Shown here: positions 8,244 to 47,745 of the stretch, one piece after another
Layout of the letters: each line of letters starts with the position of its first letter
How positions within the stretch are numbered: position 1 is the first letter of the stretch
Assembly: GCF_900167015.1 (NCBI RefSeq)
Contig: NZ_FUXX01000017.1
Location: forward strand, 1-48,275
Reading direction: 5' to 3'
From: Succinivibrio dextrinosolvens DSM 3072
GTDB lineage: Bacteria > Pseudomonadota > Gammaproteobacteria > Enterobacterales > Succinivibrionaceae
DNA length: 48,275 bases
Program-made: the position numbers and the translations under genes
Notes under the pieces: model-generated
Database searches by the model: none
What the model was told of the DNA's origin: nothing
What the model saw: only the letters and a program-made list of their open reading frames with translations

Positions 8244-9524
8244 ATGAAAGTTTTAATTATCGGAAACGGCGGCAGAGAACATGCTCTTGCATGGAGAGCT
8301 GCAAAGTCTCCTTTAGCCGAGAAGGTGTATGTAGCACCTGGTAATCCTGGTACCGCATCAGAGGACAAAATGGAGAACGTTAACATTGCTGTTAACGACA
8401 TTAAAGGTCTTGTTGAATTTGCTAAAAAAGAAAACATAGGCCTTACCATTGTTGGACCAGAGGCTCCTTTAGTAGAAGGTGTAGTTGATGAGTTTGAGAA
8501 GAATGGACTGAAGATCTTCGGCCCATCAAAGGCAGGAGCTCAGCTTGAAGGCTCAAAGTCATTCACAAAGCATTTCCTAAAGCGTCACAATATTCCAACT
8601 GCAGCCTATGAAGTATTCACCAAGGCTGATGAGGCTGAGGCATACATCAGAAAGATGGGCGCACCAATTGTTATCAAGGCTGACGGTCTTGCTGCAGGTA
8701 AAGGTGTAGTTGTTGCCATGACTGAAGCTGAGGCTATTGAGGCTGTTCACTCTATGCTGGATGAACACCAGTTCGGCGATGCATCAGCAAGTGTTGTGAT
8801 TGAAGAATTCATGGAAGGTGAAGAGGCTTCATTCATTGTTATGTCTGATACCATCAACGCTCTTCCAATGGCAACCTCACAGGACCACAAGCGTGTAGGT
8901 GATGGTGATACCGGTCCAAACACCGGAGGTATGGGTGCATATTCTCCTGCTCCTGTTGTTACCGATGAAGTTTACAAGCGTGTAATGGAAAGAATTATCT
9001 ACCCTACTCTTAAGGGTATGGCAGAGGATGGAATTCCTTACCGTGGCTTCCTGTATGCAGGACTAATGATTGACAAGGAAGGTAACCCTCGCGTAGTTGA
9101 GTTCAACTGCCGTTTCGGTGATCCAGAAACACAGCCAATCATGATGAGAATGCAGTCAGATTTAGTTGATCTGTGTTTACATGCATGTGAAAACGACGGC
9201 TTAAAGGGAATGGATATCAAATACGATCCAAGACCAGCTATCGGTGTTGTTCTTGCAGCAGAAAATTATCCAGCCTCACCTCGTAAAGGTGATAAAATAT
9301 CTGGACTTGATCACAAAACTGCAGACGATATCAAGGTTTTCCAGGCAGGAACCAAACAGGTTGGCTCTGATATCGTAACATCAGGCGGTCGTGTTCTGTG
9401 TGTGACAGCTTTAGGCGATGACGTAGCCCAGGCACGAGCAAAAGCCTATGAGCACCTTAAAAACATTCACTTCGATGGCATGTTCTTCAGAAATGATATT
9501 GCATGGAGAGCACTGAATCGATAG
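8244..9524 (+). CDS. purD: Phosphoribosylamine-glycine ligase (GAR synthetase)
   Basis: It joins glycine to phosphoribosylamine with ATP in the second step of purine synthesis. The 426-residue ATP-grasp protein shows GNGGREHALAW at the N-terminus, the nucleotide-binding loop DGLAAGKGVVVA, the EEFMEGEEASF segment, NTGGMGAYSPAP, and the catalytic metal site VEFNCRFGDPETQP. CGGAG is well placed before the ATG. It is the second gene of the purHD operon, and a transporter gene follows after 20 bp with its own GTG start and AGAGG site, so co-transcription is likely. Confidence 0.98.
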   Translation: MKVLIIGNGGREHALAWRAAKSPLAEKVYVAPGNPGTASEDKMENVNIAVNDIKGLVEFAKKENIGLTIVGPEAPLVEGVVDEFEKNGLKIFGPSKAGAQLEGSKSFTKHFLKRHNIPTAAYEVFTKADEAEAYIRKMGAPIVIKADGLAAGKGVVVAMTEAEAIEAVHSMLDEHQFGDASASVVIEEFMEGEEASFIVMSDTINALPMATSQDHKRVGDGDTGPNTGGMGAYSPAPVVTDEVYKRVMERIIYPTLKGMAEDGIPYRGFLYAGLMIDKEGNPRVVEFNCRFGDPETQPIMMRMQSDLVDLCLHACENDGLKGMDIKYDPRPAIGVVLAAENYPASPRKGDKISGLDHKTADDIKVFQAGTKQVGSDIVTSGGRVLCVTALGDDVAQARAKAYEHLKNIHFDGMFFRNDIAWRALNR

Positions 9525-26482: not shown

Positions 26483-26500
26483 GTGTATCCAATGTCCATG

Positions 26501-28669
26501 TTATTTTTTTCGTTTTAAACACAACAGAGCAATATCATCATTAAACTCAGGATGACCGGCAAACTCTACTGCAGCCTTATGGCTTGCCTCTACAATCTCT
26601 TTTGATGACATGCCTGCCTTAGCTGCCTCAAAAACCGCGTCTGTCAGCATATCCTCATCAAATTTCTCACCACTGTTTGAGAGCTCTGTTGTTATACCGT
26701 CCGTGTACATAAATACTATGTCACCAGGATTTATTACTGTCTCACGTGTACGGAAAGTTGCATCCGAAGTTAAAGCCATAATCGGATCTATTGATTCATC
26801 CATCAGGAAATTACCGGTTTGACTCTGGTCTCTGAAAATGTAAGGAGCAAAATGACCGGCATTTACATACTTCATTCTGCCGGAGCTAAGCTCAATAACG
26901 CCGAAGAAAACTGCAACATACATTTTTTCGGTATTGTGTTTATGAAGACGATCATTAACCATTGTGAAAAGAGAGCCTAAATCCTGGTTAGGATTCATCT
27001 TACTGAAGCTCTTGATAACTGACTTTGAAATCATCATAAACAGAGCTGAAGGAACTCCTCTGCCAGAAACATCACCGACACTTATAGCCATATGATCATC
27101 ATCCAGCATGAAGAAATCAAAATAATCACCGCCTGATGTCTTTGCAGGGTACTCAACAGCAAAGAGATCAAAATTGTGTTTATCAGCAATGGAGAAATCA
27201 TCTGGCAGATAGTTGACCAGAATTTCGTTTACAACATTGATTTCAGCATCAAGCCTCATTTTCTCGGCTGATACTACGGACAGATCTCTGATGGTATCCT
27301 GAAGTCTCTGAGCAAGAGAATTAAAGTTATCGCCTATATTCTGAATTTCATCTTTCGATTTAAAATCTACTCTTTTATCCAGATCTCCTGATGCGAATTC
27401 ATTCACACTGCGTGTCAGCTCCAAAATAGGCTTAACTACACTGTCAGACAGAGGAATAATACGTTTGAAGATTACAAACAGAAGAAGCAGAACAAATCCC
27501 AGAGTAGAAGCTGCGACGATTACAATAAAATTTTCAATCTTTTCGTAAAACTGATCCTGAACTTTAGTCAGATGCTGTCTGATAACTTTTGCAGGAGCAT
27601 AAACCTTCTCCACAGGAATCAGAGATGCAAAACTCCAATTAACCTTTTTTACAGGAGTGTATGCAATGAAATATTCTTTTCCCTTAATAGTTACTGACTC
27701 AAATCCGCTTTTCTGAGCAGTCATATATTTTGCAACTTCAGCTAATGACTCCTCTTCAGAATTGCGAATATCCTTGCCTAAGGAGACACTCAGGGCATCA
27801 GAATCAAAATTAACAAACAGAATTTCACCTTTTTGGCTTAAGATAAAATAGAGTTCACTTTCTTCAACTGCAATAGATTTAACAAGCTCGTATATTTTAT
27901 TTGGATTGCAGTCAACTCCCATGATGCCCCTAAATTCTCCGTTTACATAATAAGGAGATATGCAGGAAACAACCATATCACCAGACTGAGCCTGGTAAAT
28001 GTCAGTAAATGAAGGTTCTTTAAATTTCTTGCCATTCTGATACCAGATACGGGTAACAGGATCGTAGGTTGTTCGTGATGGTTCAGTACTTACAGGAACA
28101 AGATCATCCTGATGCTCCATAACATAAAGACCAATCGAATAACCGCGTTCAGAGCCGAAGAATATACAGTTGTAGTAATCTGAGTAGAATGGAGAGAAAT
28201 CCGCGATATTGGAGGCGATCCTGACTTCCTTCTCTATCTGTGGAGTCAGCCCCTCTTTTAAGAGTCTCTGGCTGTAATGGACGTAGGGAACCTTTGAAAT
28301 CACATCCTTATATAGAGCATTTGGAAGAATTCTTTCCTTATATTTTTCAGGCTGCTCAAGGAAATTTTCAAAAGTATCGCGCAACAGAGCAACATCTTCA
28401 GTGATTTGTTCAAGTTCGGTACCCAAAAGTTCAGAAACAGACTCATTAAGATTGGTAAGACGTCTTTTCTCTTCTTTTAATGCCTGTTCTTCAGCACGGC
28501 TTGTAATTCTGAACAGATTGTTTTTTTCAATGTCGTCTATGGTAGTCAATAGAAAATAGTTTCTGATTGGCGAGAAAACAGCAAAGCCCAAAATAAAAAG
28601 CAGACTTCCACTAAGAGCCGCAAAGGTTAATTTTTTTCTCAATGACTTTGTCTTAAACACAAAACTCAC
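26501..28669 (-). CDS. Membrane receptor with HAMP and SpoIIE/PP2C phosphatase output (copy 1)
   Basis: Same layout as its downstream neighbour: membrane segment at about 14-34, a large Cache-type sensor (including TYDPVTRIWYQNGKKF and GVDCNPNKIYELVKSIAV), a second membrane segment near 380, HAMP (VVKPILELTRSVNEFASGDLDKRV), and a PP2C domain with GGDYFDFF, VGDVSGRGVPSALFM, NAGHFAPYIF and NDDIALLCL. The dCache motif suggests it senses a small molecule in the periplasm. The two copies differ strongly in the sensor but share the output domain, as expected if they read different signals into one pathway. The start is GTG at 28669, or GTG at 28660 where AGGTGAG is better placed. Confidence 0.92.
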   Translation of the reverse strand: MSFVFKTKSLRKKLTFAALSGSLLFILGFAVFSPIRNYFLLTTIDDIEKNNLFRITSRAEEQALKEEKRRLTNLNESVSELLGTELEQITEDVALLRDTFENFLEQPEKYKERILPNALYKDVISKVPYVHYSQRLLKEGLTPQIEKEVRIASNIADFSPFYSDYYNCIFFGSERGYSIGLYVMEHQDDLVPVSTEPSRTTYDPVTRIWYQNGKKFKEPSFTDIYQAQSGDMVVSCISPYYVNGEFRGIMGVDCNPNKIYELVKSIAVEESELYFILSQKGEILFVNFDSDALSVSLGKDIRNSEEESLAEVAKYMTAQKSGFESVTIKGKEYFIAYTPVKKVNWSFASLIPVEKVYAPAKVIRQHLTKVQDQFYEKIENFIVIVAASTLGFVLLLLFVIFKRIIPLSDSVVKPILELTRSVNEFASGDLDKRVDFKSKDEIQNIGDNFNSLAQRLQDTIRDLSVVSAEKMRLDAEINVVNEILVNYLPDDFSIADKHNFDLFAVEYPAKTSGGDYFDFFMLDDDHMAISVGDVSGRGVPSALFMMISKSVIKSFSKMNPNQDLGSLFTMVNDRLHKHNTEKMYVAVFFGVIELSSGRMKYVNAGHFAPYIFRDQSQTGNFLMDESIDPIMALTSDATFRTRETVINPGDIVFMYTDGITTELSNSGEKFDEDMLTDAVFEAAKAGMSSKEIVEASHKAAVEFAGHPEFNDDIALLCLKRKK

Positions 28670-31153: not shown

Positions 31154-32971
31154 ATGAACTTTAAACCTCTAAAACTCTCTGCCTGTGCAGTGATAGTCGC
31201 AATGACTCTTGCCGGGTGCACCTGCAAACAGACAGCTGATGATAATGGTCGAATCAGAGTAATTCACAGTCAGTCTCAGATGGATGCTCTACTTGGTTTT
31301 GACGGAGAATGGAACAGCGCAACCGCAACTGGATTCCTATCAGGAGATGTCAGGGAATGGAGAGCTGCTGATACAGGACTTCCTTTTGATGGTGTAATTA
31401 TCGCATCTGGTGCTAATGTAAAAGTATGTCTGCCAGGTGAAATTCAGAAAGAAAAGAATACCTTCTACATTCCTGCAGGAAAATTTGTTCTGGTACAGAA
31501 AGGAGGAAAGCTCCAGGTTCACAGCGGACTTAACAAAAAAGACTTTGACCATACCACGCTGATTGTCGGAGGAACAGGCACAGCTAATACATCAGTTTCA
31601 AAAGCTCCTACGGACAAGGATGCACAGAACGCTGGAAGTATATTCAATCCTAACTATACCCACGCTCTTGAAATTCAGGAAGGCGGAACCTTTATCCTGG
31701 GCTCTGATATGGCAGATGCAAAGAATACAAAGGGACCTGATGCAAAGAAATTAGGCGAGGCAGACAATGCAGTTTTATGGCTGGCTGATGGTCGATCCAT
31801 TGCCGAAAATGGAAAGAAGAGTCCATATGCAGGAGATATTAAGGTTGATGGTCTTCTGAAAGTCTCAAGTGCTGCAGGAGCAGGTGTTGCCAAGATCAGA
31901 ACTGTTAGAAATCTTCAGGGAAAAGGAACTACGCTGACTGGTAAAGGAAAGCTTTTAATTGAAGGATTGAACCAAACTCATGGCAATGCGATTTTTGCAA
32001 TTAACGAGTTTGACCGCGGTGCTTTATCTGACGGATTTGATCGAAAAGATGTTCCTGAAATTTCTTTAGGTGCAATAGAGATCATCGGTCATGGTGTAGA
32101 GGGAATCTACAATCCTGACGGCTCTGTTGACGGCAGTCCTGGTTACAGAAACAATGCAAACGCAGGCTTCTACTATGTGGGAGCAAACGGAACCATTGAT
32201 GTTGGAAGTATGATCGTAAAGAGTACCAATCCGGGTGTAACCGCAGACTCAACGGTTGCTCTTGCAAACTTCAACACTGCTGCAGGAATTCTAGGTGGCA
32301 AGGTCACAAAGAAAGGACCAAAGGTAAAGCTTGGAGAAGTCATCATTGAAAACCAGGCTAAAGATGATCATGACGGTCCTCTATCTGCTATCTACACAGT
32401 ACAGGGTGTTATCGACTCTACTGTAACAGGAAAGATCAGTGTAACTGCACCTGGCGGTGGCGCTGCAGCTATCGTTTCAACAGGACATGCACGCTGGACA
32501 GGACCTGAGAAAACAAAATCCGTAATGGGTGATGTTACCGTAACCTCTAAGGGCAGAAACGCATTCTTCCAGACCAATACCTTTGGAGGATACGATACAA
32601 CAGTTAACGGCAATCTCTATGTTCAGGGATATGACGACGGTACAATTGCCAAGTTCGTGGGTTCTGTTCCTCCAGGACCAGACATGGGCAAGGCAGTTAA
32701 GCTGGGACAGGCTCCAAATGCCGAGGATGTAAGACACGAACAGCTGCTTGTTCAGGGAGGAAAGCTGACTGTTACAGGAGAAGTCAGTGTTGAGAATACA
32801 GCAAAGGAGAAGCCTACTATAATCAGAGTCAATCGCAAGGCTCGCGCTCAGTTAGGCTCCCTTAAGGTTAACAACGAACAGATTCAGCCTGTGAAGAATC
32901 TGAAAAAACTGATAACCACTGATTCAAAACTAATAAACAAAGGAGTTTTAACGATCGAACAAACAAAATAA
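31154..32971 (+). CDS. Large repetitive surface lipoprotein, probable beta-solenoid
   Basis: I do not recognise a named family. The signal peptide ends in LAGC (Cys22), so it is lipid-anchored. The remaining 580 residues are rich in Gly, Val, Thr, Asn and Lys and repeat short strands such as LIVGGTG, EIQEGGTFILGS, IKVDGLLKV, GKGKLLIEG and GAIEIIGHG at intervals typical of parallel beta-helix coils. The N-terminal part, DGVIIASGANVKVCLPGEI then GGKLQVHSG, loosely recalls the G8 domain found at the start of some beta-helix proteins. No glycosidase residues, autotransporter barrel or anchor motif is visible. AAGGAG precedes the ATG and a terminator follows. Possible adhesin or glycan-binding surface protein; that is inference. 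Confidence 0.75.
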   Translation: MNFKPLKLSACAVIVAMTLAGCTCKQTADDNGRIRVIHSQSQMDALLGFDGEWNSATATGFLSGDVREWRAADTGLPFDGVIIASGANVKVCLPGEIQKEKNTFYIPAGKFVLVQKGGKLQVHSGLNKKDFDHTTLIVGGTGTANTSVSKAPTDKDAQNAGSIFNPNYTHALEIQEGGTFILGSDMADAKNTKGPDAKKLGEADNAVLWLADGRSIAENGKKSPYAGDIKVDGLLKVSSAAGAGVAKIRTVRNLQGKGTTLTGKGKLLIEGLNQTHGNAIFAINEFDRGALSDGFDRKDVPEISLGAIEIIGHGVEGIYNPDGSVDGSPGYRNNANAGFYYVGANGTIDVGSMIVKSTNPGVTADSTVALANFNTAAGILGGKVTKKGPKVKLGEVIIENQAKDDHDGPLSAIYTVQGVIDSTVTGKISVTAPGGGAAAIVSTGHARWTGPEKTKSVMGDVTVTSKGRNAFFQTNTFGGYDTTVNGNLYVQGYDDGTIAKFVGSVPPGPDMGKAVKLGQAPNAEDVRHEQLLVQGGKLTVTGEVSVENTAKEKPTIIRVNRKARAQLGSLKVNNEQIQPVKNLKKLITTDSKLINKGVLTIEQTK

Positions 32972-36486: not shown

Positions 36487-38517
36487 TTATTTTTTCTTTT
36501 TCAGAATTCTAAAATCGTATGACTTTAAAGTAACTGCTCCTGTTAACTTCTGACCTGAAAGCAGATCATCATATGACTCTTTTAAAGTTACATCAGCTGA
36601 CTTATCAGAATAGTTTCCTATGAACAGATACTCTGTATCAGCGTTATATCTGGTATGACAAGTTACAGCAAAAGGAAGACTCTCGATTGGAGATTCTACT
36701 CTGCAGTCTCCTAAAATCTTGCTTAACAGTTTATCGAGATAGCTGTATTCAATTCTGCTTGCTACATAGTAGGCATTGCCATTTCCAAAACTGTTTACAG
36801 TTACCGCTGCATAATCCTTAAAGAAATCACTATTAAATGTACCTAATACCTTAGTATCCCCATGAGGGTGAATCAGAGCACATAGATGAGTTGCATCAAA
36901 CTCTTCTGCTCCAACTTTAACTTTAACTGTTTCATCATCTTCAAGGCATTCAATTTCTTCATCCCAGATACCTAGAACTTCACTTAAAGGACCAGGGAAA
37001 CCTCCTAGGAATGTTAAGTCATTATCATCAACGATTCCTGACCAGAATGAAGAAACATATGTTCCGCCATTACGAACAAACTCGGTTACTCTCTTGGCAT
37101 AATCACCACGAATCATATAGGTCATTGGTGCAATTACCAGTTTGTAGTTATCTAAAGGACAGGTTTCGTCGATTACATCGACGTTGATACCATGTTTCCA
37201 TAGTACCTTGTAGTAATCCTGAACAACCTCAAGATACTTCTTACCAACGTTACGAGGTCCCATAGCGTCATCAATTGCCCACCAATTCTGGGTATCAAAC
37301 ACTACAGCAACTTTGGCATCAACACGGGAACCAGCGATTTCTCCAAGTTTCTCAAGAATAGAGCCAAGCTCACATACTTCCTTTCCTACTCGAGTATTAA
37401 GATGACCTACGTGATCAACTACAGCTCCATGGAATTTTTCTGATGCCCCCCTGCTCTTTCGCCACTGGAAATACTGTATGTTATCAGCACCGTGGGCTAA
37501 AGCCTGCAGGGAAGACAGTTTATGCATTCCTGGCTTCTTAAGTTTTGAGGTATCACGCCAGTTGGTCAGGCTTGGAGTTGACTCCATAAGCACAAAAGGC
37601 TGTCCACCTTTTAGTGATCTCATCAGATCATGATTCATAGCTGTATACAGAGGAGTCTGTTCCTGATCCTTAAATACATGCCACTGAGGATATGAATCCC
37701 ATGAAACAAAATCGAGAATCTTTGCAAATTCAAAGTAATCATAATCATAGAAATATTCCATGAAATTCGTGGTTACAGGAAGATCAGCTCTAACACTTTT
37801 CACGGTATCAATTTCATGTTTACAGAAATCCATACACAACTCAGTATTAAAACGAGCCCAGTCAAGATTTAACGCATGAACAGCATTTTCACCTATGGAA
37901 GATGGAGACTCAATTTCACTCCAATCTGTGTATACATGAGACCAGAATACAGACCAGTAGGATTTATTAAGATTATCCAGTGTCTTATATTTATTTTTCA
38001 TCCAAATTCTAAAGTTCTTCTGACATAATTCACAATGACAGCTGCCAGAGAATTCATTTGAAATATGCCATCCGATAACAGCAGGATGATTAGCGTATCT
38101 CTGAGCTAGTTTTAAATCTATATCATGAACCTTCTGACGGTATACTGGTGAAGAACTGCAGTGGTTATGTCTGCCTCCGTGTAACGCTCTTACACGATTT
38201 TCCCAGACACGCAGTACCTCTGGATATTTTTTTGACATCCAGGTTGGTCTTGCACCACTTGGAGTTGCAAGAAATACCTTAATTCCATTCTCATTTAGCT
38301 TATCAAGAATTTTATCAAGCCACTCGAAATTGTAACGACCTTCCTCCGGCTCAAGCATTGACCAGGAAAAAATGCCTACAGACATGATATTGCAGTGAGC
38401 CTGTTTCATCATCTCTATATCTTTTTCAAGAATTTCCGGTGAATCAAGCCACTGCTCTGGATTATAGTCACATCCATGGAAAATCTTATGCTGTTTGAAT
38501 AAAGGATCGAATTTCAT
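36487..38517 (-). CDS. GH42 beta-galactosidase
   Basis: The cytoplasmic enzyme cuts beta-galactosides and short galacto-oligosaccharides to galactose. The product shows GCDYNPEQW at the N-terminus, the acid/base Glu in WHISNEFSGS, a metal-binding cysteine cluster (CHCELC plus an earlier HNHCSSS), the nucleophile Glu in FVLMEST, and the trimer and C-terminal beta-sandwich domains. There is no signal peptide. I take the ATG at 38517 (MKFDPLFKQ) since TGGGAA precedes it; an ATG at 38529 lacks any ribosome-binding site. It is the last gene of the galactan operon, after GH53. Confidence 0.95.
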   Translation of the reverse strand: MKFDPLFKQHKIFHGCDYNPEQWLDSPEILEKDIEMMKQAHCNIMSVGIFSWSMLEPEEGRYNFEWLDKILDKLNENGIKVFLATPSGARPTWMSKKYPEVLRVWENRVRALHGGRHNHCSSSPVYRQKVHDIDLKLAQRYANHPAVIGWHISNEFSGSCHCELCQKNFRIWMKNKYKTLDNLNKSYWSVFWSHVYTDWSEIESPSSIGENAVHALNLDWARFNTELCMDFCKHEIDTVKSVRADLPVTTNFMEYFYDYDYFEFAKILDFVSWDSYPQWHVFKDQEQTPLYTAMNHDLMRSLKGGQPFVLMESTPSLTNWRDTSKLKKPGMHKLSSLQALAHGADNIQYFQWRKSRGASEKFHGAVVDHVGHLNTRVGKEVCELGSILEKLGEIAGSRVDAKVAVVFDTQNWWAIDDAMGPRNVGKKYLEVVQDYYKVLWKHGINVDVIDETCPLDNYKLVIAPMTYMIRGDYAKRVTEFVRNGGTYVSSFWSGIVDDNDLTFLGGFPGPLSEVLGIWDEEIECLEDDETVKVKVGAEEFDATHLCALIHPHGDTKVLGTFNSDFFKDYAAVTVNSFGNGNAYYVASRIEYSYLDKLLSKILGDCRVESPIESLPFAVTCHTRYNADTEYLFIGNYSDKSADVTLKESYDDLLSGQKLTGAVTLKSYDFRILKKKK

Positions 38518-38602
38518 TTTTATTCCCATTTGTTATGATGTTATGAAATTTTTTTAAGTTAATTTCTAATACAAAGTAAGTTAACTCTATACGTAAACAT
38601 AA

Positions 38603-39826
38603 TTAGTTGTTGAAGACCTTAATTGAAGGCAGTACTTTTCCTGTTTTATCAAATAGGGCCTGATTCTCTCGAGCATTACCCTGCTGACAGTCTGCACCGC
38701 ACTTTATGTAGGCCATACCTGCAGGACTTGCCCAGCTTATTCCAGGAGCTGTCTTCCATGCAGCTTCCCAGTAGAAGAATCCGGTTCCGCCTGCTTTATC
38801 AACGTTCTCCATCAAATCTTTTAAATACTGATACTGACCGTTAACAGAAGCTTCGTATCCAGATTTTTTTACACCTTCAGCATCAATATCCTGAGCCAGA
38901 GAATCATCACTTTCCAGAGTATATGGGTAGCTTCCCTCTACAACCATTACCTCTTTGCCATACTGGTTCTTAACCCATTTGATATTGTCTGTCAGAGCTG
39001 AAATTGGACCATCCCACCAGGTGTACATGGACATACCAATTACATCAAAATCTACATCTCTCTTGGTTATTTCATCGAACCACCATTTAAAAGCGCCGTT
39101 ATCAGGCCCCTTTGCAAGATGCAGCATGATTTTTGAATCAGAACCAACAGCTTCCTTTACACCTTTAATTGCAGATTTTAAAAGCAGGCTTAAGCGATCA
39201 AACTCATGACCATCCCCTCCCCAGCTCTTGCCGTCAGGCCAGAGAATTCCAGAATTAACTTCGTTGCCAATTTGGACCATTTCTGGAGTTAAGCCAGCAT
39301 CCTTAAAAGTGGTCATAACATCCTTTGAATACTTATAAATGGCATCGTTAAGTTCTTCAAAAGACAAGTTCTCCCAGGACTTAGGCTTAAACTGTTTACC
39401 AGGATCAGTCCAGAAATCTGAATAATGGAAGTCTAGCAGCACCTTCATGCCAAGCTTTTTGGCTCTGCGAACAAGCTCAAGATCTGTAGCAAGATCATTG
39501 TTACCAGCACCGTATACATTTCCGTTCTGATCTTTTGGATCGACCCAGAGTCTTACACGGATATAGTTAATACCATTATCACGAAGGATCTTTAAACAAT
39601 CCTCAGCCTCACCCTTCTCATTTCTGTAGACAAAACCAGCCTGCTCCATTTCAATCAGAGTTGAAATATCTGCACCTTTGATGAAGTCTTTTGAAAGGTC
39701 AGCCTTTTGGAATGAAGATGATGTATGAGATAACATCTGTTCATTGTTGGTCTGAGTCATTTCACAACCGCACATTAGACAGGCAATAACAGCCGTAGTC
39801 AAAACCTTGGTTTTGATATTTTTCAT
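38603..39826 (-). CDS. ganB: GH53 endo-beta-1,4-galactanase lipoprotein
   Basis: It cuts beta-1,4-galactan side chains of pectin (type I arabinogalactan) into galacto-oligosaccharides. The lipoprotein signal ends at MCGC (Cys21), so the enzyme is membrane-anchored outside the cytoplasm. The GH53 pattern is clear: FIKGADISTLIEMEQAG, NGINYIRVRLWVDP, LLDFHYSDFWTDPGKQ, the acid/base Glu in VQIGNEVNSGILWP, and the nucleophile Glu in MVVEGSYPYT. It lies downstream of the two permease genes in the same operon. Whether it sits in the inner or outer membrane cannot be read reliably. Confidence 0.95.
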   Translation of the reverse strand: MKNIKTKVLTTAVIACLMCGCEMTQTNNEQMLSHTSSSFQKADLSKDFIKGADISTLIEMEQAGFVYRNEKGEAEDCLKILRDNGINYIRVRLWVDPKDQNGNVYGAGNNDLATDLELVRRAKKLGMKVLLDFHYSDFWTDPGKQFKPKSWENLSFEELNDAIYKYSKDVMTTFKDAGLTPEMVQIGNEVNSGILWPDGKSWGGDGHEFDRLSLLLKSAIKGVKEAVGSDSKIMLHLAKGPDNGAFKWWFDEITKRDVDFDVIGMSMYTWWDGPISALTDNIKWVKNQYGKEVMVVEGSYPYTLESDDSLAQDIDAEGVKKSGYEASVNGQYQYLKDLMENVDKAGGTGFFYWEAAWKTAPGISWASPAGMAYIKCGADCQQGNARENQALFDKTGKVLPSIKVFNN

Positions 39827-39879
39827 ATGATTATTTCCTTAAATATGTTTGTTTGAAGAGTAACTGTCTAGTTTTATGT

Positions 39880-40731
39880 TTAACCCTTTGAACCACCCGC
39901 AGTCAGACCTGATACAAAGAACTTCTGTAACCACAGGAATAGTAAGGCAACCGGTACAGAAATTAGTACCGCACCTGCAGCATAGGTGGTATAACTTGCG
40001 CCCATCTTCATGGAAACAAGGTTATAGAGGCCAATTGGTAAGGTGAATTGATCTGGAGTTCTTAAAATAGTTGTAGATAAAATGAAGTCGCCTAAAGGAC
40101 CTGTAAATGAAAACAGTGCAATTACAGCAATAATTGGCTTGGATAAAGGCATAATTATTTCAATGAAAATTCTGAAATGACCTGCACCATCCATTCTTGC
40201 AGATTCATCAAGATCACGAGGAATAGCATCAATGTAGCCTTTCATCAGATATGTATTCATTGGAATCATGCCACCAACATAAATCAGAACCAATGCAAGA
40301 TGACTGTTAACAAGACCTAACATCTGAGATAGAACAAAGATTGCAATCAGAGCAGAGAACTGAGGAATCATCTGCAGCAGAAGAAACAGGATAAGTCCAT
40401 TCTTTCTTCCAACGAAACGGAATCTTGAAAAAGAGTAAGCGGTAAAACTTACAAAAATCAGAGTCAGAATCATTGTGAAAAAACTGATCTTCATGGAATT
40501 TAAATACCAGGTTACATAGTCAACCTTGCCATTGAACAGATCTGCGTAATGCTCAAATGAAATATTCTTTGGAATGATTGAAGAACTCATCAGGCTGTTA
40601 CCAGGATTTAACGAGGCTCCAACAGTCCAGACTAAAGGGTATAGGATCAGAAGGCTTACAAAACCTACCAGAAGCCAGGTTAAAGTTAGTCGAATCTGAT
40701 TCTGACGCTTAATACTTCTTTTCTTATTCAT
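39880..40731 (-). CDS. ganQ: Galacto-oligosaccharide ABC permease, MalG type
   Basis: The 283-residue inner-membrane protein has six hydrophobic segments and the permease EAA loop ESARMDGAGHFRIFIEIIMPLSKPI, which contacts the ATPase. It matches the MalG/GanQ branch of carbohydrate permeases (IPKNISFEHYADLF near the N-terminus). It starts 13 bp after the MalF-type gene and is followed by GH53. The galactan substrate is inferred from context. Confidence 0.93.
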   Translation of the reverse strand: MNKKRSIKRQNQIRLTLTWLLVGFVSLLILYPLVWTVGASLNPGNSLMSSSIIPKNISFEHYADLFNGKVDYVTWYLNSMKISFFTMILTLIFVSFTAYSFSRFRFVGRKNGLILFLLLQMIPQFSALIAIFVLSQMLGLVNSHLALVLIYVGGMIPMNTYLMKGYIDAIPRDLDESARMDGAGHFRIFIEIIMPLSKPIIAVIALFSFTGPLGDFILSTTILRTPDQFTLPIGLYNLVSMKMGASYTTYAAGAVLISVPVALLFLWLQKFFVSGLTAGGSKG

Positions 40732-40744
40732 AATCTTTCCCCTA

Positions 40745-42061
40745 TTACCTCATTTCGTCATTCTTAAAGGCACTTGAGCGTCTGAACTGCCATAAAGCGA
40801 CACCAACCACGAATATTGAAAGAAGGATGGTAATTGCGGCTGCTACAGAGTACTGAGATGAACTCATTGTCAGCTTGTAAATCCATGACACCAGAATGTC
40901 AGTACCACCAGCATTTGAACCTGGTACTGCAGGACCACCGTTGTTGAATAGGTAAATAATATTGAAGTTGTTAAAGTTAAAGGTGTACTGAGTAATGATG
41001 ATTGGTGCAATTGAATACAGTACCAGCGGTAGAGTTATAGTTCTGAATTTTGTATATGAACTTGCTCCATCCATAGTTGCCGCTTCATATAGATCCTCAG
41101 GAATTGCCTGAAGAACACCTGTTGTCATTGCAAAGACAAATGGGAATCCAAGCCAGGTCTGCATTAAGATTAAAGCAGTCTTTGTCCAGAAAGGATCGGT
41201 CAGCCATGCTTTAGGCTCAATACCAAGCATAGGCAGAATGGTGTTGTTGATTACACCGAAAGAATCATTAAACATACCTGCAAACACAAGAATAGTTACG
41301 AATCCAGGTACCGCCCAAGGCAGAATAAAGATTGTTCTGATGATTCCCTTATATTTAAGATCCTTCTGGTTTACAACGATAGCCAGCATAACACCGACAG
41401 CACACTGCAGAGTTGTTGCAAGAACAGTCCATACTACAGTCCACTGCAGTACATCAAAGAATGTTGATCTCCATAGTTTTAATGCAAAGATGTTTTCAAA
41501 AACCTTTAAACCAACCCACTGAACAAGTTTTGCTGGAGGTGCGTTATAAAGATTGTAATTGGTAAACGCAATTGCAAAACCGAAAATGATTGGGAAGATT
41601 ACTACGAAAACCAGAATGATAAAGCCAGGAGCAATCATCAGATAAGGAAAACCGTTATCAAGCAGATTCTTGTACTGTCGTCTCAATGTATACAGCTGGC
41701 GACCTTCATCACGAACTTTACCGCAGACATAGCCGTCATGAAGGGCAACTCCCCACATACATAAAGCTAATAACACCATTAGAACGGTGATGATTCCTTC
41801 TGCCAGCAGGAATATGGAGTTATCTCTTGGAAGCACTTCGCCAAGGGTAACAAGTCCCCATAGACCGTGAGTAATCAGATCCTTACTGCAGCTGAAAAAA
41901 CTTACAAGAAAAACAAAAAAGATAAGCCCTTTGACAATCTGTCTGTTATAAAACTGACCGCCACCAGGGAAAATTCCACAGATTAGAGCTGTAATGGCGT
42001 GATTTGTTTTTATATTCATTATCATTGATGGAGTTGTTCCTACAGATTCCACTTTAATCAC
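40745..42061 (-). CDS. ganP: Galacto-oligosaccharide ABC permease, MalF type
   Basis: The 438-residue protein has about eight membrane segments and the EAA loop YEAATMDGASSYTKFRTITLPLV. An N-terminal extension (GIFPGGGQFYNRQIVKGLIFF) is common in the GanP/MalF group of Gram-positive type transporters. The start is uncertain: GTG at 42061 has AAGGA only a few bases away, while GTG at 42052 has that site at normal spacing. The upstream hairpin at 42072-42093 separates it from the binding-protein gene. Its partner is the MalG-type gene that follows. Confidence 0.92.
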   Translation of the reverse strand: MIKVESVGTTPSMIMNIKTNHAITALICGIFPGGGQFYNRQIVKGLIFFVFLVSFFSCSKDLITHGLWGLVTLGEVLPRDNSIFLLAEGIITVLMVLLALCMWGVALHDGYVCGKVRDEGRQLYTLRRQYKNLLDNGFPYLMIAPGFIILVFVVIFPIIFGFAIAFTNYNLYNAPPAKLVQWVGLKVFENIFALKLWRSTFFDVLQWTVVWTVLATTLQCAVGVMLAIVVNQKDLKYKGIIRTIFILPWAVPGFVTILVFAGMFNDSFGVINNTILPMLGIEPKAWLTDPFWTKTALILMQTWLGFPFVFAMTTGVLQAIPEDLYEAATMDGASSYTKFRTITLPLVLYSIAPIIITQYTFNFNNFNIIYLFNNGGPAVPGSNAGGTDILVSWIYKLTMSSSQYSVAAAITILLSIFVVGVALWQFRRSSAFKNDEMR

Positions 42062-42071
42062 CCTTCCTTTT

Positions 42072-42093
42072 AAGAGGGGATTTCTCCCCTCTT
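42072..42093 (-). promoter_or_regulatory. Intergenic hairpin between the binding-protein and permease genes
   Basis: AAGAGGGGA and TCCCCTCTT form a perfect 9-bp stem with a 4-base loop. Similar hairpins after malE-type genes protect the upstream mRNA or partly end transcription, so that binding protein is made in excess over permease. That role here is inference. Confidence 0.7.
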
Positions 42094-42106
42094 TTATAAT
42101 TTGCTT

Positions 42107-43318
42107 TTACATTCCAGAACGGAAAGCTTCAATCTGGTTGTTAATATGCTCAGTAGCACCTTCTAATGCTGATTTAACATCCTGCTTGTCTGTCACGATT
42201 AGCTGTAAAGCTGCATCAATAGGTCCCCAGACTTCAGACATTTCTGGAATAGAAGGCATAGGCTCAGCACGTGAAGCTTGCACTGCAATTGCAGAAGCAA
42301 TTGGATTCTCCTTGAATTTAGGATCGTTCATAACTTCCTTTACAGGAGGAATTTCCATGGTTTTCTCAAAACGGATTGCAGCATATTTAGGCTGATTGAT
42401 ATAGTTGATGAATTTCTCTGCCAGTTCCTTATCCTTAGACCAGGTTGAGACAACATAGCCTTTTACGCCCATAAATGAACTCATTGGCTGACCATTTGGC
42501 AGCTTAGGTAGAGGAACAACACCGAAGTTGATTCCTGCCTTCTGATATGGCTCTACAGCCCATGGTCCATTGATAACAGCAGCAGCCTTTTTCTCTGTAA
42601 ACAGAGAGTCAATTGCGTTTACACCGTTCTCACCGATAATACCGGTTGGGAATAAGCCATCCTTATAGAATTTCTTTATGTATGTCATTCCTTCAACAGC
42701 ACCGGCATTTGATAAACCTACATCTGTTGCGTCATAGTCTCCGCTATCATTTCTCTTGAATACATATGCGCCATAAGGTTTGATTGCACCATATACGTAA
42801 TAGGTAGAATCAAATTTAGCAAGTAAGCCATAATTACCGTCTTTGGTATGCTCTTTTGAATATGTGTAGTAATCCTCAAGATTCTCAAAAGGCTCTTTAA
42901 TAAGGTCTTTGTTGTAGAACATGGCAATTGTTTCAACAACTTTAGGTGCACCGTATACATTACCGTTGGTTGTAAAAGCAGATAAAGAAGATTCTGTGTA
43001 TATTTCCTTGTTTAGTTTATTTAGAGGAGAGATTAGATTCTGTACTACAGCAGCTCCAAGCTGATCATGAGGAATAACCATCACATCAGGACCGATACCT
43101 GCAGGTCCATCCAGGCGTAGTTTTTCAATCTGTGTTGTATAAGGCATTTCCTGAATCTTTACATCAACATCGAACTCTTTTTCAAAATCAGCTACAGCCT
43201 GTTCAATACCTTTAGATTTTTGAATATCTTCCCATACGCTTAATTCTGTTTTGGCATTAGCCATACCTGCAGAAATAATCATGGCTACAGAAAAAGCCAG
43301 TTTTGTAATATTTCTCAT
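42107..43318 (-). CDS. ganS: Galacto-oligosaccharide-binding protein (MalE type)
   Basis: The periplasmic protein delivers sugar to the permease. A signal peptide (MRNITKLAFSVAMIISAGMANA, cleavage after ANA) precedes a mature protein with MalE-like features: ELSVWEDIQKSKGIEQAVADFEKEF, GIGPDVMVIPHDQLG, and AAAVINGPWAVEPYQKAGINFGVVPLP. It is the first gene of the galactan operon. A lac-like operator lies 19-35 bp before the start and AAGGAGATATC gives a strong ribosome-binding site. The ligand is inferred from the GH53/GH42 neighbours; maltodextrin binding cannot be ruled out by sequence alone. Confidence 0.92.
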   Translation of the reverse strand: MRNITKLAFSVAMIISAGMANAKTELSVWEDIQKSKGIEQAVADFEKEFDVDVKIQEMPYTTQIEKLRLDGPAGIGPDVMVIPHDQLGAAVVQNLISPLNKLNKEIYTESSLSAFTTNGNVYGAPKVVETIAMFYNKDLIKEPFENLEDYYTYSKEHTKDGNYGLLAKFDSTYYVYGAIKPYGAYVFKRNDSGDYDATDVGLSNAGAVEGMTYIKKFYKDGLFPTGIIGENGVNAIDSLFTEKKAAAVINGPWAVEPYQKAGINFGVVPLPKLPNGQPMSSFMGVKGYVVSTWSKDKELAEKFINYINQPKYAAIRFEKTMEIPPVKEVMNDPKFKENPIASAIAVQASRAEPMPSIPEMSEVWGPIDAALQLIVTDKQDVKSALEGATEHINNQIEAFRSGM

Positions 43319-43336
43319 TGATATCTCCTTTATGTT

Positions 43337-43353
43337 TTGTGAACGTTATACAA
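43337..43353. promoter_or_regulatory. Candidate GanR operator before ganS
   Basis: TTGTGAACGTTATACAA lines up with E. coli lac O1 (TTGTGAGCGGATAACAA) at 12 of 17 positions. It lies 19-35 bp before the ganS start codon. The regulator in the locus has LacI-like recognition residues. Confidence 0.55.
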
Positions 43354-43482
43354 ATATATTAACAGATTGAAAACTAAAGATTTTATGCATTAACAGTGTT
43401 ATTCTTTCTGTATGTTGTTTTGTATAGTATTGCACATTTAAAAAGAATGGATACAAGATTTGTTTAAAAAGATGTATTTTTT

Positions 43483-43498
43483 TGGGATAACCATCACA
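43483..43498. promoter_or_regulatory. Candidate CRP (cAMP receptor protein) site
   Basis: TGGGA-TAACCA-TCACA matches the CRP consensus TGTGA-N6-TCACA at nine of ten core positions with correct spacing. It is central in the divergent control region, as expected for catabolite control of sugar genes. Confidence 0.5.
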
Positions 43499-43707
43499 CA
43501 AATGTATATTTTTGCACACAACAACTAGTCATTTATGTATATTTACAAACAACAAATGTTACGAATGATACATATCATACATTTTAAATGTTTAAATACA
43601 TACATTTTATATGTAATGTATATTCAAAAGTTTTACATATAATGTGAGTTGTCATAGTATATGTTAAATATATCTTGTTGATATACAAACAACATCGGAG
43701 ATTATTA

Positions 43708-44847
43708 ATGGCCAGTATCGAATTAAGAAATGTAACAAAAGCTTACGGCAAGGTTGTTACATTAAAGAATATAAACCTGCGTATTGAAGACGGTGAACTT
43801 GCTGTCTTCGTTGGACCCTCAGGCTGTGGAAAATCTACAATGCTCAGAATGATAGCTGGTCTTGAAGAAATTTCTGATGGAGAGCTGCTTATTGATAATG
43901 ATGTTGTAAATGATGTAACTCCAGCAGATCGCGGTGTTGCAATGGTATTTCAGTCATATGCTCTATATCCTCATATGACCGTTGCCGAGAATATGTCTTA
44001 CAGCCTGAAAATTCATAAAGTACCAAAAGATGTAATTAAATACGAAATTTCTAAGGTTGCAAAAGCTCTTCAGATAGAACATCTTCTTGACAGAAAACCA
44101 AAACAGCTCTCTGGAGGCCAGAGACAGCGTGTTGCTATTGGCCGAGCAATTGTAAGAAAACCAAAGGTCTTTACCTTTGATGAGCCTTTATCAAACCTTG
44201 ATGCAGAACTTAGAGTTGAAATGCGACTTCATATCGCAAGAATGCATCATGATATGAAAACAACCATGGTATACGTTACACACGATCAGGTTGAAGCAAT
44301 GACTCTTGCAGATAAGATTGTGGTTATGAACTTTGGTAAGGTTGAGCAGGTAGGATCTCCAATGGATCTTTACTACAATCCATGTAACAAATTTGTGGCC
44401 GGATTCATTGGCTCTCCTAAAATGAATTTTATTCCAACAGAGATAACCAAGGTTAATCAGAATTCAGTATGTGTGAAACTGGATGAAAACGACATTGAAC
44501 TTCCAGCTTTAACTTCTAACCTGAAAGTAGGAGATAAGGTGACAGTTGGTATTCGACCTGAATATATAACAGTAGGTTCATTACAGAAAGCACTTGAAGC
44601 TTATGGTGGTGAGCCAGGATTTACAATGTCGTTTGATTCTGACGTCGTAGAAAGACTTGGTAACAATACATACATATACGGAACCTGCTGCGGTCAGGAC
44701 AATTTTAAAGTTATTCTGCCTGGAGATGTTCATACAAAGCCACGTCAAACAACAACGGTATCAGCACTTATTAAAAATGTAATGCTCTTTGATGAAAACG
44801 ATGAGCGTATTTATCCGAATTTAGAAGAAAAATCAAAGAATTCTTAG
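43708..44847 (+). CDS. MsmX/MalK-type carbohydrate ABC ATPase
   Basis: It powers the sugar importer from the cytoplasmic side. The 379-residue protein has Walker [10 protein letters not shown], the Q-loop [12 protein letters not shown], signature [16 protein letters not shown], Walker [16 protein letters not shown], the H-loop THD, and a C-terminal regulatory TOBE domain. The start at 43708 (MASIELRNV) follows CGGAG; a longer frame from 43675 has no ribosome-binding site and adds 11 odd residues. It is transcribed away from the binding-protein operon. It probably serves GanSPQ and could be shared with other sugar importers. Confidence 0.94.
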
Positions 44848-44880
44848 TTTACTCTAGTGTTTTGTTTGTATTAAGTTTTA

Positions 44881-44910
44881 GGGAGAGTCTGTCGGCTCTC
44901 CTTTCTTTAC
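44881..44910 (+). terminator. Terminator after the ABC ATPase gene
   Basis: GGAGAG (44882-44887) pairs with CTCTCC (44896-44901) with further pairing in the loop, followed by TTTCTTT. It lies 34 bp after the stop. Confidence 0.8.
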
Positions 44911-44974
44911 GCGTCTATGAATAACCTCTACTTAGAGAATCACGACATTGATTATCCAAGCAGAGGCCCTGCGA

Positions 44975-46045
44975 CTATTTTTCAAGAAGATTTGCAGCTT
45001 CTCTTAAAGCTTTTACAAGATTCTTTACATTTGAATTGCGCAGATTGGTATTGGCAGTAGATTGTCTGATTACCAGCGTAGTTGGCAGAACAGATGAAGC
45101 TTTTGGCTCATTCTCATTGATTAGTTTAGAGATCGTAAGCTTGCACTGCATATCTCTGTCAAGATGAACGGAGGTTAGTGGAGGCAGATAAAAAGCACTG
45201 TCCTGATAGTCATCGTAGCCTATAACAGATACATCTTCCGGTACAGAAAGATTATTCTGACTTAGTGCGCTTATTGCGCCTAGTGCCATCTGATCGTTTG
45301 CAACAAGAATAGCAGTAAAATCGCGATTATCTCTGAGCATTTTTAGGGTGGCAAGATATCCACTCTGAGTTGACCAGTCTCCCCTCTCAAAACATACTTC
45401 CTCAAGATTGTTAATTCTAATGCCCTCTCTCCAGCATTTTAATCTTGATTCGGATGAAGAAATTCCTTCAGGGCCCGCAAGAATTGCAATTTTATGATGT
45501 CCAAGTTCTCTTAGGTGAGAAACAGAAAAAAGAGTTCCGTCAGCAGGGTTGAAGGTCACATTAAACACAGGACAGTAAGGATCGACATCAATAAAAATCA
45601 AAGTGACATCAGGGAATTCCTCTGTAAGCTTTATGGCATCACTTGAATCTACAGGCATATTGATTACAACTTTAGTAATTATCTGAGCCTTTAGTTCTAA
45701 AATCGCGTCAGAAATACTCTGATAATCGTTAGCAGATGCAAGAGTTAATGCAATATGATAACCAGCCTCCAGAGCATATTTTCTGCATAAAGACGATACT
45801 TCAGTGACTGCAACGGATGGAACAGAAGTATTTACTATTCCAATAACATTGCGATCCTTTTTTGCCAGCTGCTGAGCTAAAAGATTTGGCACATATTTTA
45901 ACTCTGCAATTGCATTCTCAATTTTTTCCTTTGTGGAAGGAGATACATTACAAGAGTTGTTCAATACTCTTGAAACTGTCTGATACGAGACGCCAGCTTT
46001 TTTAGCCACATCCTGCATCGTTACTTTCTTGTTTTTATCTTCCAT
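44975..46045 (-). CDS. ganR: LacI-family repressor of the galactan locus
   Basis: The 356-residue protein has an N-terminal helix-turn-helix VTMQDVAKKAGVSYQTVSRVLNN, then the hinge helix (ELKYVPNLLAQQLA) and a periplasmic-binding-like sensor domain (VSVIGYDDYQDSAFYLPPLTSV). The recognition helix has YQT..R in the same positions as E. coli LacI (SYQTVSR), predicting the same operator half-site TTGTGAGC. Candidate operators of that kind occur in front of ganS, the porin gene and the gene itself. The likely inducer is a galactose-containing sugar. It ends with a C-terminal stretch of about 25 helical residues. Confidence 0.93.
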   Translation of the reverse strand: MEDKNKKVTMQDVAKKAGVSYQTVSRVLNNSCNVSPSTKEKIENAIAELKYVPNLLAQQLAKKDRNVIGIVNTSVPSVAVTEVSSLCRKYALEAGYHIALTLASANDYQSISDAILELKAQIITKVVINMPVDSSDAIKLTEEFPDVTLIFIDVDPYCPVFNVTFNPADGTLFSVSHLRELGHHKIAILAGPEGISSSESRLKCWREGIRINNLEEVCFERGDWSTQSGYLATLKMLRDNRDFTAILVANDQMALGAISALSQNNLSVPEDVSVIGYDDYQDSAFYLPPLTSVHLDRDMQCKLTISKLINENEPKASSVLPTTLVIRQSTANTNLRNSNVKNLVKALREAANLLEK

Positions 46046-46068
46046 TTATTTGTTCTCTAAAATAGTAA

Positions 46069-46085
46069 TTGTGGCCGTTATTATA
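46069..46085 (-). promoter_or_regulatory. ganR -10 box overlapped by a candidate operator
   Basis: On the minus strand TATAAT (46085-46080) is a consensus -10 box, with AGTCAA 17 bp upstream as a weak -35. On the plus strand the same bases read TTGTGGCCGTTATTATA, sharing TTGTG-N2-CGTTAT with the site in front of ganS. Binding here would block the ganR promoter, i.e. autorepression. Confidence 0.5.
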
Positions 46086-46306
46086 CATTACCCTGTTAAT
46101 TTTTGACTAAATTAATACACATTGTGAGCAAATATATATTTGTTTCTTTTAAAACTGTTAACTAACTCATTAAAATTAAAGATTTATTTTTAGTACTCTT
46201 GTTTCATATCATGTATACAGTATTACAAAAATATGTATAATTAAATACAAAAAATATCTAAAAATTTTTGATTAAGATCATATTTTCCATTTATTTCATT
46301 TGCAGA

Positions 46307-46334
46307 TTGATTTATTTAATATGAATATTATAAC
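46307..46334 (+). promoter_or_regulatory. Sigma-70 promoter of the porin gene
   Basis: TTGATT (46307-46312) and TATAAC (46329-46334) are separated by 16 bp. The symmetric operator starts at the next base, so transcription would begin inside it. Confidence 0.6.
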
Positions 46335-46354
46335 AAATGTGAGCGTTCACATTT
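46335..46354. promoter_or_regulatory. Symmetric lac-type operator of the porin gene
   Basis: AAATGTGAGCGTTCACATTT is a palindrome with perfect 8-bp arms around GCGT. It matches the symmetric lac operator AATTGTGAGCGCTCACAATT at 16 of 20 positions, including the whole TGTGAGCG core. It covers the start of transcription, the classical place for repression. The arm spacing (TGTGA-N4-TCACA) excludes a standard CRP site. Confidence 0.75.
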
Positions 46355-46407
46355 TACTGAGTGTTTTAATACAGTCTTTTAAACAAACATCAAGTAACAA
46401 TTTAATT

Positions 46408-47745
46408 ATGAGAAAGTTTTCACTTATAGCAGCTGCTGTAATTTCCTCCGTTTACGCTGCATCAGCATTGGCAACTCCAACATTTGATTTCCACGGCTAT
46501 TTCCGTTCAGGTTTAGGTCTTTCAAAAGATGGCTCTCAGACTTCATATCAGCTTAAGAATGTTGGTCGTCTGGGTAACGAAAAAGATACCTATGCAGAAC
46601 TTGAGTTTGGTTCAGAATTATTCAAAAAGGGTGATTTAAGCTTTTATGTCGATTCAATGGTTTCTATGACCTCTGATGGAGCTAATGATGGCGAAACAAC
46701 ATCTAAGACAGATAAAGATAAGGCTGATTTTGGTTTAAGACAGTTAAATCTACAGATTAAAGGTTTACTTGATTTTGATAAAGATGCTGTATTGTGGGCA
46801 GGTAAGAGATATTATCAGAGACATGATATCCACATTATCGACTACAAATACTGGGATGTTAGCGGTTCAGGTGCCGGTTTGGAGTACCTGTCATTAGGAC
46901 CAGGTAAACTTTCATTAGCATGGGTTCGTAAACAGTCAAATGATATTGACTACCGTTATGACGACATGGAAGATGCAAATAATGTTTGGGCTACCAAAAA
47001 GAGCGTTAATGTAAACTTCTTCGATGCTCGTTATGCGTTATCTCCTTGGGAAGGAGGCTGGGCAGAGTTTGGTGTAGACTATGCTGTTCCTCGTGGTACA
47101 ACTAGATCTGAGAACAATGGCAGACCAGTTGTTATTGCAAAAGGTTATGATATTGATAACAGCTTAATGCTTACCGCCCTACTCTCACAGAAACATAATT
47201 ATGGCTGGAATGAGACTGTTCTGCAGTTCTCCAACAAGGGTTTAGCTCACCACGCAGTAGACAGTGATGGTTCATGGTTTGATCACTGGAGTGACTGCAA
47301 TAATGCAAAAGGATACAACATCATCGATCACGGTGACTTAGACTTCACAAAAGACTTCCACATGACCTATGTTGCTTCATATGGTTATGCAAAAGACTTA
47401 AGTGAAACCATCGACAACAAGAAACTGGCTAAGTTTGTTGTAAGACCTTGGTATCAGTTAACAGAGTACACAAAGGCTTATGTAGAGGCAGGTACTTACG
47501 TTCAGTCAACCAAATATTTATCTGGCGATAAGGATGTTGAGAGAGGTCACAAGCTAACCTTAGCATACGCAATTGCTCCTGATATTGGTTATAAGGCACG
47601 TCCAGAGCTGAGATTCTTTGTATCTTATTTACATGCAAGAGATTTCAACCCAGAACTGAAAAAAGGAATTCAGAGCTACGATGATACCAATAAGTACTAC
47701 AAGAGAGACTACTGCATTGGTGTTCAAGCTGAAGCATGGTGGTAA
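46408..47745 (+). CDS. LamB-like sugar porin
   Basis: It forms an outer-membrane beta-barrel that lets oligosaccharides in. The ATG at 46408 gives a good signal peptide (MRKFSLIAAAVISSVYAASALA) and a mature start with TPTFDFHGYFRSGLG, as in maltoporin. An upstream TTG frame from 46300 would be translated across the operator and is rejected. Further matches are YAELEFGSELFKKGDLSFYVDSMVS, WAGKRYYQRHDIHIIDYKYWDVSGSGAGLE, and the terminal AEAWW, the aromatic end required for barrel insertion. At 445 residues it is of normal length. Its likely cargo is galacto-oligosaccharides given the locus, though LamB homologs usually carry maltodextrins. The ribosome-binding site is weak. Confidence 0.92.
   Translation: MRKFSLIAAAVISSVYAASALATPTFDFHGYFRSGLGLSKDGSQTSYQLKNVGRLGNEKDTYAELEFGSELFKKGDLSFYVDSMVSMTSDGANDGETTSKTDKDKADFGLRQLNLQIKGLLDFDKDAVLWAGKRYYQRHDIHIIDYKYWDVSGSGAGLEYLSLGPGKLSLAWVRKQSNDIDYRYDDMEDANNVWATKKSVNVNFFDARYALSPWEGGWAEFGVDYAVPRGTTRSENNGRPVVIAKGYDIDNSLMLTALLSQKHNYGWNETVLQFSNKGLAHHAVDSDGSWFDHWSDCNNAKGYNIIDHGDLDFTKDFHMTYVASYGYAKDLSETIDNKKLAKFVVRPWYQLTEYTKAYVEAGTYVQSTKYLSGDKDVERGHKLTLAYAIAPDIGYKARPELRFFVSYLHARDFNPELKKGIQSYDDTNKYYKRDYCIGVQAEAWW

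Follow-up and report, generated by a model that had tools for sequence, protein, structure and literature searches.

A predicted symmetric lac-type operator precedes the porin gene of a galactan locus in Succinivibrio dextrinosolvens

A 20-bp palindrome that precedes a LamB-like porin gene of Succinivibrio dextrinosolvens DSM 3072 is very probably the operator of the adjacent GanR-like, LacI-clade repressor, for which a galactan-derived β-galactoside would serve as the inducer. This reading draws on the sequence itself, on its conservation as an operator, on its co-occurrence with the repressor, and on the clade and pocket residues of the repressor. The window analyzed is one whole contig (G000:C88) of 48,275 nucleotides, from a genome of 2.67 Mb in 104 contigs. 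The features discussed are collected in Table 1.

The palindrome, AAATGTGAGCGTTCACATTT, shares 17 of 20 positions with the symmetric lac operator (a recount; the first-pass annotation gave 16), with mismatches at positions 3, 12, and 18. Eighteen of its own 20 positions are palindromic. Like a lac-type operator, it has two TGTGA-type half-sites at lac spacing and lies near a promoter. No second place with up to three mismatches to AAATGTGAGCGTTCACATTT was found in the window, where shuffles expect 0.01. The genome search suggested with the first-pass annotation was run, and the exact form TGTGANCGNTCACA occurs in the 2.67 Mb only at the porin palindrome, with one-mismatch matches at four other places. 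Six of the other operator-like places in the genome (L135, L136, L137, L139, L140, and L144) were rejected, as no gene there could be linked to galactan; the matches in L139, L140, and L144 fall inside reading frames. The one at L136:1501-1514 (G000:C44:25559-25572) is a near lac-type TGTGAGCGATAACA with a RibB-like gene on one side and, on the other, a sugar-kinase-like gene and then an RbsD-like gene, all named by eye.

The hexamers TTGATT (46307-46312) and TATAAC (46329-46334) do stand directly 5′ of the palindrome with 16-bp spacing, as described at first pass, but they are absent from the list returned by a consensus promoter scan, which found 6 promoter-like sites compared with 4.3 in shuffles. 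This putative promoter is therefore weak evidence. TTG 46300 is no more than a mechanical start of the porin reading frame, and the signal-peptide-like start is ATG 46408. Because the palindrome ends 53 nt upstream of this likely ATG, it would overlap the start of transcription and not, as originally described, the start of the gene.

Table 1. Predicted genes and regulatory sites of the galactan locus (window coordinates)
Feature	Position	Strand	Basis
GH42 beta-galactosidase, GanB-like	36487..38529	-	Glyco_hydro_42, 514 bits
GH53 endo-beta-1,4-galactanase, GanA-like	38603..39826	-	Glyco_hydro_53, 416 bits
ABC permease, MalG/GanG-like	39880..40731	-	BPD_transp_1; best model MalG, below cutoff
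ABC permease, MalF/GanF-like	40745..42061	-	BPD_transp_1; best model MalF, below cutoff
Galactan-oligosaccharide binding protein, GanS/GanE-like	42107..43318	-	SBP_bac_8; NF053763 GanS 522 bits, below cutoff 700
Second operator TTTTGTGAACGTTATACAAAT, predicted	43335..43355		16 nt before binding-protein ATG; enterobacterial matrix 20.4
Weak candidate site TGTGAGTTGTCATA before ATPase gene	43643..43656		3 mismatches to TGTGANCGNTCACA; matches at chance frequency
MalK-type ABC ATPase, GanK-like	43708..44847	+	ABC_tran and OB_MalK; UgpC subfamily model above cutoff
LacI-clade repressor, GanR-like	44975..46045	-	NF007075 (NCBIfam subfamily model) 405 bits, above cutoff 340; gan clade in tree
Weak candidate half-site CATTGTGAGC, repressor side	46120..46129	+	only 4.2 bits, half-site matrix
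Putative porin promoter TTGATT-N16-TATAAC	46307..46334	+	by eye; not in consensus-scan list
Symmetric lac-type operator, predicted	46335..46354		17/20; TGTGANCGNTCACA unique exact; symmetric half-site matrix 19.9
LamB-like porin, GanL-like	46408..47745	+	Pfam LamB 319 bits; NCBIfam LamB models below cutoffs

The interval 36487-47745 holds genes for a GH42 and a GH53 enzyme, two permeases, a binding protein, a MalK-type ATPase, a LacI-family protein, and a LamB porin, which by Pfam and NCBIfam models together make up the gan gene set. Of the 21 loci compared, nine intact enterobacterial ones (L049-L056 and L085) have these genes too, with regulator and porin likewise transcribed divergently; their sources are named Enterobacter, Pantoea, Erwinia, Phytobacter, Dickeya, and Kluyvera. 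Judged by gene content, the window locus is of the gan (galactan) type known from Dickeya. A tenth enterobacterial locus, L060, has the same set with broken frames. In this stretch (L060:1-11061; Enterobacter sp. EA-1), the gan locus, including its regulator, is split over many frames, by decay or sequencing errors. Elsewhere in the window, 24284-28669 (minus strand) encodes two adjoining SpoIIE-type phosphatases with HAMP and sensor domains, a possible signaling pair, and 31154-32971 (plus strand) is a lipoprotein-like frame of 605 amino acids with glycine-containing repeats seen by eye and no Pfam match.

The tree places the window repressor in a clade sister to that of E. coli LacI. Its best solved-structure match is the E. 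coli lac repressor (1lbg, E=1.5e-74), to which it can be aligned over residues 6-356 with 37% identity. In a midpoint-rooted tree of 55 rows, the 19 gan rows group together (100/97) next to 9 LacI rows, and the LacI and gan regulators (29 rows) share one branch (100/99) apart from other LacI-family proteins. The window repressor falls in the gan clade and is flanked by gan genes, and thus has neither the lac-clade placement nor the lacZ neighbor of LacI proper. Among the matches listed, lacZ adjoins six of the eight lac-clade loci other than that of E. coli, and the remaining two contigs end there. The closest relatives by repressor are G013, G015, and G005, all of the same genus. A class-level search gave one other match, 38% identical, which has an exact lac O1 and is therefore of the LacI type.

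The recognition helix of the window repressor reads V-S-Y-Q-T-V-S-R. The YQT..R recognition residues of LacI are thus present, as the first-pass annotation held (Y17, Q18, and R22), but they are common to the GanR and LacI clades, so the motif does not single out LacI. The three residues are kept in 28 of 29 rows of the LacI/gan branch (L057 has Q at position 17) and YQT is found in 1 of 26 outgroup rows, in each case among the matches listed by a retrieval pattern that itself contained the YQT motif. Four other LacI-type regulators were seen in the genome; none has YQT, and their helix residues differ.

Seven galactoside-pocket residues, N125, D149, F161, R197, W220, N246, and D274, are kept in 19/19 gan rows among the matches listed. 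Again among the matches listed, position L296 is Q in 19/19 gan rows and L in 8/9 lac rows, I79 is replaced by V in 18/19 gan rows, and H29 by N in 18/19. One study assigns N246 to the non-reducing-sugar pocket, and I79, F161, and L296 to the reducing-end pocket (PMC5384092). The pattern of L296Q, I79V, and H29N fits a galactoside that has another reducing-end part. GanR is also listed among galactoside regulators in a second source (PMC4052901).

The control that we judge to carry the most weight compares porin genes within the genus. There are 19 LamB-like places, of which 3 are beside GanR and 16 are not, and one of the latter was dropped since it has only 49 bp upstream. All three GanR-adjacent porins have a predicted operator scoring 16.1-19.9 at -62 to -73 from the ATG, whereas the 15 other LamB-like genes score 10.1 or lower and have no operator; among these 15, one has only 74 bp upstream and two share one divergent stretch. 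In the same-genus relatives L038 and L039, the porin operator is kept as a 15-bp, less symmetric form, and no exact TGTGANCGNTCACA occurs in G013, G015, or G005. Loss of the palindrome from related genomes that keep the porin had been named in advance as evidence against a lac-type operator. An operator is indeed kept in these relatives, but its symmetric form is replaced by the 15-bp forms of L038 and L039. Two operator-like sites 113 bp apart lie between porin and repressor in G013 (L038:8240-8260 and 8353-8373); the corresponding interval of the window has one strong site only.

Results obtained with weight matrices depend on the form of the matrix. When the center column is removed from the enterobacterial matrix, the porin palindrome scores 10.8, less than the mean of 13.5 for shuffles, and this result counts against the palindrome as an operator. 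A symmetric matrix consisting of two copies of the strong half-site, made after the palindrome was seen, gives a score of 19.9 that is reached by 1 of 300 shuffles. This matrix also detects a similar site at the G038 porin (L045; score 19.2, 0/1000 shuffles), and G038 has exact TGTGANCGNTCACA only at its porin. With the complete enterobacterial matrix, seven of ten family loci have their best hit in a gan intergenic region (the window, L038 with two sites, L039, L040, L041, L042, and L043). The intergenic site of L045 is the second-best hit, and no hit was found in the gan intergenic region of L044 or L046. The best hit of L044 (15.2) is downstream of the regulator gene, and no other gan gene is shown in this locus; that of L046 (11.5) is elsewhere, in a locus whose edge cuts into the binding-protein gene. 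The repressor and porin genes of L041 are adjacent, yet no convincing operator is seen there by match to the E. coli operators (p 0.198); the loose-pattern match of this locus is at -355.

Enterobacterial gan loci carry TGTGAACGTANTACA or a sequence close to it before the porin gene. More generally, TGTGAACGTA-N-TACA or a near form is found 5′ of the porin, and a mirrored relative 5′ of the binding-protein gene. With loose patterns (up to two mismatches), a site is present in 10/10 enterobacterial porin regions, one of them from the locus with broken frames. In leave-one-locus-out matrix scans, the porin and binding-protein sites are the top two hits in all seven loci scanned of the nine intact ones. 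In five of five further gan-type loci, the regulator is preceded by the site with 0 or 1 mismatch, and an exact lac O1 is found in three LacI-type loci. When regions were searched for their best match to the E. coli operators, p values of up to 0.022 were obtained for 9 of 14 porin regions, with the L056 match lying away from its operator, and of up to 0.024 for 5 of 13 binding-protein regions; the binding-protein regions of L049, L050, L051, L052, and L056 end ∼4 bases inside the operator, so that the p values understate the match. Pooled p values, in which related regions count as independent, carry no weight here. A third operator-like site, displaced by ∼140 bp from the porin operator toward ganR, was seen in four of seven enterobacterial loci (L051:9888-9908, L052:9888-9908, L055:9886-9906, and L085:9887-9907; scores 17.9-21.7). 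It is weaker in L049 and L056, is not in the best six of L053, and may serve autoregulation or a short loop.

The enterobacterial matrix, built from 13 enterobacterial sites only, has its best hit in the window (20.4; runner-up 11.8) at the predicted second operator before the binding-protein gene. The best score in 150 shuffles of the window has a mean of 12.7 and a maximum of 20.4, so the score alone is within chance for 48 kb, and position is the stronger argument. The pattern TTGTGANCGTNNTACA, written after the site was seen, occurs exactly once in the genome, at this site; with up to two mismatches it is as common (24 and 24) as a reversed control (28 and 21). The site is not the best match to the E. 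coli operators in its region (p 0.116). Because the best window site of the matrix lies before the binding-protein gene, the porin and transporter promoters are probably under one regulator, and the control originally proposed with the porin as its target does not appear porin-specific.

Other explanations for the palindrome can be considered. Its TGTGA and TCACA half-sites resemble the CRP (cAMP receptor protein) consensus, in which half-sites of this type are 6 bp apart, and the palindrome might therefore function in catabolite activation. However, its half-sites are separated by 4 bp, it is not among the 34 CRP-like matches of the window (29.9 are expected, so these are at chance level), and it co-occurs with the repressor and not with LamB-like genes generally, all of which leave a CRP site extremely unlikely. 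One CRP-like match, at 46267-46282, was rejected as a member of the chance-level set. Operator function for a different regulator, such as another LacI-family protein, is conceivable since further members of this family exist in the genome. This is very unlikely, however, given that the four others seen have different helix residues, that among the LamB-like genes of the genus the operator goes with the GanR-adjacent porins and is lacking at the 15 others, and that the code is common to enterobacterial gan loci.

A role in RNA is hardly to be expected either. An 8-bp stem could form at the start of the porin transcript and affect stability or attenuation, but the predicted fold of the 81-nt stretch is not better than that of shuffled sequences (z -0.88; 37/200 as good), no terminator-like site was found, and most relatives have a pseudo-symmetric site instead of a strong stem. 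A chance match without function is suggested by the AT-rich genome and by the fact that the symmetric matrix was made after the site was seen. Against this, the expectation for the window is 0.01 at three or fewer mismatches, the position relative to the ATG is the same as for the operators of two same-genus relatives, and a like site is present at the G038 porin, which makes coincidence a very slim prospect.

If the palindrome is the operator of the GanR-like repressor, we infer the following scheme for binding and induction. Without inducer, the repressor would occupy the porin operator just 3′ of the -10 element and shut the porin promoter down, and it would also occupy the second operator and block the importer/galactanase operon. 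A galactan-derived β-galactoside, probably a short β-1,4-galacto-oligosaccharide, would occupy the conserved pocket for the galactosyl unit and free the operators of repressor, leading to joint induction of porin, ABC importer, GH53, and GH42. In Bacillus subtilis, GanR is a LacI-family protein with another operator and is induced by β-1,4-galactobiose (PMC5472308), which makes this disaccharide the first inducer candidate here. The sequence of the window repressor parallels that of LacI to residue 355, which takes in most of the C-terminal tail. This leucine-rich tail, only partly like the tetramerization helix of LacI, suggests that loops could form between the operators 3.0 kb apart. We also consider, as a tentative and rather doubtful idea, that a 15-bp GanR operator became symmetric and center-less, with two strong half-sites, at the porin in two genera of this family, with the porin more tightly repressed than the importer under the same repressor and possibly a 3-kb tetramer loop between the two operators.

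The first-pass annotation had proposed that a lac-type DNA code was reused for a porin in a galactan locus. Comparison supports the repressor, operator, and locus, and an operator is kept at the porin in most relatives. The code itself appears to have been inherited and not reused, since the regulator groups in a clade sister to LacI and 7/7 lac loci examined have TGTGAGCG operators before lacZ.

The galactan locus, the LacI clade, and the lac-type half-site are already known kinds. Our literature search did not find this operator described for a proteobacterial gan regulator, and RegPrecise or supplements may record the code. As far as was searched, two things are apparently new, the operator code that the clade uses in this family and the occurrence of a symmetric-type operator in nature. 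The findings link an experimentally known galactan locus to the closest relatives of the lac repressor and offer a testable operator code for the GanR-like clade in two bacterial groups. Natural operators of 14 and 15 bp that one LacI-type protein probably reads should be useful for studying the evolution of LacI-family specificity and operator spacing.

The gan locus of Dickeya dadantii (Erwinia chrysanthemi), reportedly described by Delangle and colleagues in 2007, is said to hold porin, ABC importer, endogalactanase, and exogalactanase genes. In aphids, the ganL, ganE, ganF, ganG, ganA, and ganB genes of D. dadantii are down 53-, 42-, 28-, 24-, 17-, and 7-fold (PMC3544676). Dickeya undicola (L055) has the same genes and the same divergent regulator-porin order as the window, with 46% identity for both porin and regulator. 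Its porin operator is the 15-bp TGTGAACGTAGTACA, whereas the window has the symmetric 14-bp form. The E. coli lac repressor is alike in its sister-clade position, YQT..R helix, pocket residues, and TGTGA(A/G)CG half-site; in contrast, the window repressor is beside galactan genes and not lacZ, has N for H29 and Q for L296, and is only 37% identical. B. subtilis GanR is likewise a LacI-family repressor of a galactan operon, but its motif, AGTAAA-N4-TTTACT, is another DNA code (PMC5472308). The symmetric lac operator Osym, called synthetic for E. coli (PMC4402528), also has two half-sites without a central base pair. The predicted window operator is natural, however, and has AAA/TTT flanks instead of AAT/ATT, and the presence of such a symmetric-type operator in two genera is an unusual detail of these loci.
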